64,000 nucleotides of DNA. It comes from Chaetoceros tenuissimus. Taxonomy: Eukaryota; Bacillariophyta; Thalassiosirophyceae; Chaetocerotales; Chaetocerotaceae. The first letter of the stretch is position 1. Each line of letters starts with the position of its first letter. Made by a program: the position numbers and the translations under genes. Shown in pieces: positions 59,304-60,033 of this stretch. Below the pieces are notes generated by a model. It was given only the letters and a program-made list of their open reading frames with translations. It was not told the origin of the DNA and made no database searches. Location: the NCBI GenBank assembly GCA_021927905.1, contig BLLK01000019.1, positions 1,116,001-1,180,000 of the forward strand, given 5' to 3'.

Positions 59304-59910
59304 ATGGCATCTGGGTTCAATACACGTTGGTCTTCTAATTGCAGTCCATATGGAGTGGTAGAAGCTACGACAGAGACAGATTTTGCATTCAAAGTAAGGC
59401 AGAAGAAGATTTGAAACATTCATCATCATGTTGCTTGTGTCTTGCGTTTGCTTCTTTAGATTGCTGGTAGACGAAGGACTATTATTTTCTACTTTTGTCC
59501 GAAACTATTCACAGAAAGATTCTCACTTTCCATACTTCCTTTACATACTACATAGGTCTATTATGCTGGAGCCTGATATCCACACGGGCCAGAAGCTCGT
59601 GACATGTGCATAGATGTCATCCATGAAATATTTCCGGGCGCAGAAGTAGAATGGGAAAGGACGGAAAGAGTGCAAGTTCCAATGATGTAAGTATAATATA
59701 TTTGAATACATTTAACTTGGATTGAAAGCCCTAAAGCTAACCTAATTTTTTTTTCATCAACAAAAATGAAGGACTGTGGATGAAACTAAAAGTGGTAAAC
59801 AGATTTTAACTTTTGATCAAAATGAAATGTCTGACGATATGTACGGTCCATCGGTGGATATGTTACGTCAAAAACTCAAAGAAATAAAGAATACGTCAGA
59901 CTCTTCTTAG
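59304..59910 (+). CDS. Candidate Rdx/SelW-like selenoprotein with in-frame TGA as Sec
   Basis: Exons 59304-59393, 59556-59686 and 59772-59910 join at clean GT-AG introns (GTAAGG..CATAG, GTAAGT..TGAAG) for 120 codons. Read with TGA at 59574-59576 as selenocysteine (residue 37), the protein has VYYAGA-U-YPHGPEARDM, IDVIHEIFPGAEVEW and SGKQILTFDQ. That order matches the thioredoxin-like Rdx family (SelW, SelT, SelH): Y..(C)..U.Y.P.A, then a helix, FPG, then a beta strand. The usual Cys of CxxU is Ala here. The other two frames close in exon 2, so only the TGA frame leads on through exon 3. A SECIS-like hairpin follows 70 bp after the stop. Rdx proteins are thought to have redox roles. Confidence 0.75.
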
Positions 59911-59979
59911 CGAACTACATCCATTTAAAAAAAAAAAGAAACAAAAGAACATTTGAATGCTGTATTATGTACAATATGA

Positions 59980-60033
59980 ATGACAGAATGCAATATCCTT
60001 CTTTTAAATCTGAGAGTATATTTCATTCTTGAA
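59980..60033 (+). promoter_or_regulatory. SECIS-like hairpin in the 3' UTR
   Basis: ATGAC (59980-59984) is followed by AGAATGCAATAT (59985-59996). This pairs in 11 of 12 positions with ATATTTCATTCT (60018-60029), which is followed directly by TGAA (60030-60033). UGAC against UGAA forms the non-Watson-Crick quartet (A.G and G.A in tandem) that defines a eukaryotic SECIS. The helix length fits. The 21-base apical loop starts with CC where most SECIS have AA; CC variants are known in SelM and SelO. An AAA is also in the loop at 60006-60008. Confidence 0.75.

Follow-up and report, generated by a model that had tools for sequence, protein, structure and literature searches.

Within a 64,000-nucleotide stretch of the genome of the diatom Chaetoceros tenuissimus (GenBank assembly GCA_021927905.1, contig BLLK01000019.1, positions 1,116,001 to 1,180,000; hereafter the window, whose numbering and + strand are used unless stated otherwise), the interval 59304-59910 holds a three-exon nuclear gene. 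With a probability of about 0.88, this gene encodes a 119-residue selenoprotein with a SelW/Rdx-type fold, in which selenocysteine (Sec, U) is inserted at UGA codon 37 through a selenocysteine insertion sequence (SECIS) in the 3' untranslated region (UTR) and serves as the active residue of a one-selenol redox enzyme. The gene is most likely a real, misannotated member of a widespread algal selenoprotein family, SelW-like in its predicted fold and divergent in its active site, which reads AxxU. A selenoprotein with a SECIS of its own had already been proposed in a first-pass annotation made from the letters of the DNA, and this proposal is supported because the genes of the family are broken exactly at the TGA and because the SECIS core is the one found in all nine clear selenoproteins of the same genome.

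Gene structure and the break at codon 37

Exons of 90, 131 and 139 nt (59304-59393, 59556-59686 and 59772-59910), separated by two GT..AG introns, are spliced into one frame that reads MASGF...FAFK-VYYAGAUYPHGPEARDM...NTSDSS. Exon 1 encodes residues 1-30 (MASGF...FAFK), an N-terminal segment conserved in 12 relatives starting with MASGF, and is followed by the phase 0 intron 1 (59394-59555, GTAAGG...ATAG). Exon 2 carries the Sec site and the first helix (VYYAGAUYPHGPEARDM...), and intron 2 (59687-59771, GTAAGT...GAAG) leads to exon 3, closed by a TAG stop codon at 59908-59910; relatives cover both of these exons. The TGA at 59574-59576 is the sole internal stop of the spliced frame, and it was thus confirmed that the 119-residue protein appears only when this TGA is read as Sec and that the frame is consistent over three exons, as had been claimed. 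Both introns are supported by relatives: in five exon 3 pieces (P0066-P0069 and P0075) an R stands directly before TVDET, as read-through of an AG|G acceptor would give, and the reading of P0081 runs off past FAFKV, which fits an intron located where intron 1 is. The alternative AG acceptors tried in both introns produced extra stops or a frame shift, with the exception of 59793 for intron 2, which keeps the frame open and shortens the protein. When the whole genome (41.0 Mb, 68 contigs) was searched with the protein, only its own three exons were matched at E values up to 0.001, and no paralogue was found.

The assignment of the TGA to Sec at residue 37 draws on the ends of 115 distinct homologous proteins, the union of a single-sequence search (9 proteins, all recurring in the next), an alignment search (82) and a third search that listed 104. 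Eighty-two of the 115 start at Met47, the first methionine past the TGA, where the deposited C. tenuissimus 'predicted protein' (P0002; 73 residues, the same as those encoded by the 3' part of the gene) also begins. Four end exactly at residue 36 (P0070, P0071, P0079 and P0080, of which the last two are identical in sequence, leaving three distinct), two start at residue 38, six span codon 37 with W, one (P0021) spans the site with Cys-Leu at residues 36-37, and 20 are other pieces, mostly of exon 3. P0070 and P0023 come from one source with a longest contig of equal size, which suggests that both halves of the gene lie on one contig. Two relatives have named sources other than C. tenuissimus, the diatom Asterionellopsis glacialis (P0085) and the prasinophyte Pyramimonas parkeae (P0093), in each case a transcriptome, and both start at Met47. 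The relatives conserve the protein sequence of exon 1 and of residues 31-46, including the codons between the TGA and Met47; coding sequence on either side of the in-frame UGA is conserved. The TGA is read directly in the window; for the relatives it is deduced, since no DNA of any relative came from scanning viral contigs twice and prokaryote genome contigs once, or from a plasmid collection. The first-pass annotation had also tied its reading to homologues with Sec or Cys at this position: homologues with a stop there, presumably TGA, were found, and none with Cys at position 37 itself was seen.

All six proteins with W at the site carry the AGA motif and are ENA or Logan calls. In one of them, P0007, conserved coding sequence makes up the tail but is read in a shifted frame; re-framing by codon possibilities gave MTVV[E or G]TTSG and MSD[D or G]YRGPG, with E and D arising from TGA and G from TGG. 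In the alignment of 104 relatives over this part, 71 have E and none has G in the first column, and 61 have D and one has G in the second. Judged from these columns, TGA was most likely rendered as Trp in the translation of P0007, so that its W37 does not speak for TGG; the same translation is plausible for the other five. P0021 (ENA, longest contig 5746 bp), a full-length relative with AGCLDPHGPE, could be set apart from a TGA form by an insertion and a deletion that compensate each other; it may be a real non-Sec homologue or a frame-corrected assembly, and P0104 (63 members), which closely resembles it, starts at Met47.

The proposed SECIS hairpin and the selenoproteins of the genome

The SECIS core occupies 59979-60033 and has the layout AATGAC-AGAATGCAATAT-CC...-ATATTTCATTCT-TGAA. 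Its AATGAC (59979-59984) stands at +69 from the stop, with 68 nt between the stop and the first A, and is followed by helix II (59985-59996 with 60018-60029, 11/12 pairs), the apical CC (59997-59998) and TGAA (60030-60033); the hairpin about 70 bases past the stop that was described at the outset, with its quartet, 11 of 12 pairs and CC, was therefore borne out. A full SECIS including helix I probably extends over 59955-60055, where the predicted fold has -17.9 kcal/mol, an energy without shuffle comparison at these ends, and where the flanking stem is prediction only.

The same core recurs in the genome. AATGAC was found 46-88 nt past the stop in 9/9 clear selenoproteins, namely SelT, two GPX, SelM/Sep15, two MsrA and three SelU (L014, L020, L021, L024-L026, L028, L033 and L034 of G000), and within 200 nt of the stop in 0/11 comparison loci, which represent 10 genes at most as L013 and L015 share one frame; the 'stop' here is the first in-frame stop past the Pfam match and may be intronic for some loci. 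L016-L018 and further MsrA matches stand outside this comparison. The SelU loci L024-L026 were at first counted among those without TGA and were reclassified as selenoproteins after their AATGAC had been seen; their TGA lies in G*xxC, 15-19 codons upstream, which we take to be the SelU motif, and without them AATGAC is present in 6/6 clear TGA loci. Two loci with an in-frame TGA and no AATGAC within 200 nt were left out of the nine, L022 (a GPX exon, true gene end not found) and L032 (C*WSC, doubtful), and counting them in gives 9/11. The nine resemble the gene described here in the in-frame TGA and in the core and its distance, whereas they belong to other protein families and have Pfam matches. 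The window has 35 copies of AATGAC on one strand and 29 on the other, about 0.05 per 100 nt.

A hairpin rule (TGA, at least 11/12 pairs, AA or CC, GA), which was shaped by the candidate itself, picks out this site alone on the + strand of the 64 kb and one site on the - strand, and in 20 Markov sequences it found a mean of 0.45 sites per strand. Two other rules served less well: a SECIS filter modified from PMC2375036 returned 17 + and 25 - sites, recovered only 1/9 sister elements and was not used as evidence, and a single-hairpin energy rule gave no structure for 2/6 sister elements. A second AATGAC hairpin, at 29427, was set aside; it adjoins the start of an apparent minus-strand gene, and no selenoprotein frame was noticed in 28200-29700.

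The machinery for Sec is present in the genome, which has SepSecS and five tRNA-Sec loci above the Rfam cut-off, three of them with anticodon TCA by ARAGORN. One of the five, L007 (G000 C34:1126986-1127071), has the anticodon loop CCUUAAA, which would make its anticodon UUA, reading UAA; its acceptor stem is seemingly intact, it received no ARAGORN call, it lies 2.8 kb from the TCA copy L005, and it may be a pseudogene or an ochre-reading Sec tRNA. Another, L008 (G000 C54:1808110-1808207), has an anticodon loop enlarged by about 12 nt in an intron-like manner and likewise received no ARAGORN call.

Predicted fold, active site and proposed mechanism

The predicted fold is thioredoxin-like and SelW/Rdx-like, with the order strand-helix-strand-strand-strand-helix and middling scores, and Sec is predicted to fall in the loop that joins the long strand 28-34 to helix 41-55. 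In a structure comparison, SelW-type chains of matching length filled 6 of the top 12 rows. Alignment by hhalign placed Sec on Sec of human SelW, marginally (P 0.014, probability 3%), and gave nothing with the diatom Rdx domain; a sequence search of the PDB returned chance-level matches only. The 'Rdx/SelW-like' label of the first-pass annotation accordingly stands as far as the predicted fold and this one alignment go, and it found no Pfam Rdx match. With the SelW/Rdx family (PF10262; SelW, SelT, SelH and Rdx12) the protein would share the predicted fold and the position of Sec in the loop before helix 1, along with the small size and the 3' UTR SECIS. It differs in having AGAU for CxxU, in the PHGPEARDM that is conserved downstream of Sec and in an arm of about 25 residues at the N-terminus. 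AxxU in place of CxxU had been noted before, and the A is constant: the window and each of the 11 relatives covering the site have A at the first motif position, and neither CxxC nor CxxU is found. Ala takes the place of the partner cysteine, two pieces have Glu directly before Sec, and the family lacks an invariant cysteine: Cys13 is present in 9/13 N-terminal sequences and replaced by Ser in 4/13. At L013/L015 (G000 C32:352070-352648), the Rdx domain matches twice within a single open frame that has no TGA; the first match carries CTGC, the second CTDM.

In the established eukaryotic pathway, a SECIS recruits SBP2/eEFSec and Sec-tRNA(UCA). The hairpin at 59979-60033 would act in this way, and the ribosome would read UGA 37 as Sec. 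The residue would then occupy the loop between strand 28-34 and helix 41-55, where SelW has CxxU. Because the partner cysteine is replaced by Ala and no cysteine is invariant, the protein is most likely a one-selenol redox enzyme, with peroxide, methionine-oxide or glutathionylation chemistry, and its selenol would be resolved by glutathione or another outside thiol; Cys13 may be the resolving residue in part of the family.

Competing explanations and significance

Several results weigh against a selenoprotein of the SelW/Rdx type. Pfam assigned the protein to no family at E values up to 10, and PF10262 is absent from the seven families listed for 59 relatives (E up to 1). The Rfam SECIS models, the covariance check proposed at the outset, had no match in the whole window at gathering scores or in 59850-60150 at E values up to 10. 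The energy of the hairpin was reached by 12/500 Markov shuffles of the downstream stretch, dinucleotide-shuffle z-scores in three stretches around it were weak (-0.41 to -0.97), and among the 64 AATGAC sites of the window the candidate ranks 5th by folding, with 4/64 folding better. It is from this unremarkable SECIS, by covariance model and by energy, that non-Sec near-cognate suppression draws its case: UGA would be read through as Trp or Arg, and the hairpin would be a chance structure. The same genome, however, has the Sec machinery and nine clear selenoproteins with the AATGAC core at a similar distance, which makes this explanation highly improbable. The placement of the core as in the sister genes also speaks against an ordinary Trp protein, whose ancestral codon was TGG and whose TGA in the window is a recent nonsense mutation or the mark of a dying gene. 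That view would account for the W in all six homologues that read through the site with the AGA motif, a further point against Sec; yet all six are ENA or Logan calls, one of them (P0007) most likely translated with TGA as Trp, four pieces (three distinct) stop just before the site and 82 proteins start at the Met after it, and no full-length W-containing protein of NCBI or UniRef is among the matches listed. We consider it unlikely by a wide margin, if slightly less so than near-cognate suppression.

As remote as suppression is the view that the deposited model is right and that a 73-residue protein begins at Met47, the upstream frame being chance or a separate peptide. It agrees with the annotation as deposited (P0002) and with the way most relatives were called, but it leaves unexplained the conservation of exon 1 and residues 31-46, and such a protein would be without strand 28-34 and part of helix 41-55. 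A more serious competitor, still the less likely one, accepts the selenoprotein as proposed and places it in a thioredoxin-like lineage other than Rdx/SelW; it differs in ancestry only, so that its odds overlap with those of the SelW/Rdx selenoprotein, and the matching lengths and share of SelW-type chains in the top structure rows, together with the Sec-on-Sec alignment to human SelW, argue against it.

A large share of ocean production comes from diatoms and prasinophytes, many of which need selenium. If the SelW-like selenoprotein is real, a conserved selenoprotein has been truncated in the deposited annotation and split in metagenome gene sets, and the selenium requirement of algae is catalogued incompletely. 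A SelW-like site that lacks the partner cysteine would also be a direct test of what one selenol is capable of in that fold, and the AATGAC pattern, present in the clear selenoproteins and absent from the comparison loci, may serve as a search rule for further missed selenoproteins in the genome. More tentatively, and at slightly less than even odds, we suggest an undescribed family across diatoms and prasinophyte green algae, overlooked as annotation halves the gene, which keeps the SelW fold without the partner cysteine and whose lone AxxU selenol is the only shared redox atom. In the titles and abstract openings searched, no description of an AxxU SelW-like family turned up. Algal selenoprotein catalogues list SELENOW and unnamed 'hypothetical' selenoproteins, without sequences in the text (PMC2375036, PMC7539508); the parts of these papers that were seen contain no mention of an AxxU SelW-like protein ('AxxU' occurs 0 times in PMC7539508), and their unnamed algal selenoproteins or SELENOW genes could include the present one.

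Upstream of the gene, the same strand carries another gene at 57797-58942 with zf-C3HC and NuBaID_C domains, and a perfect 13-bp tandem repeat of CATTCCCACTTCC (5.8 copies, 59125-59200) lies just upstream of the selenoprotein gene.
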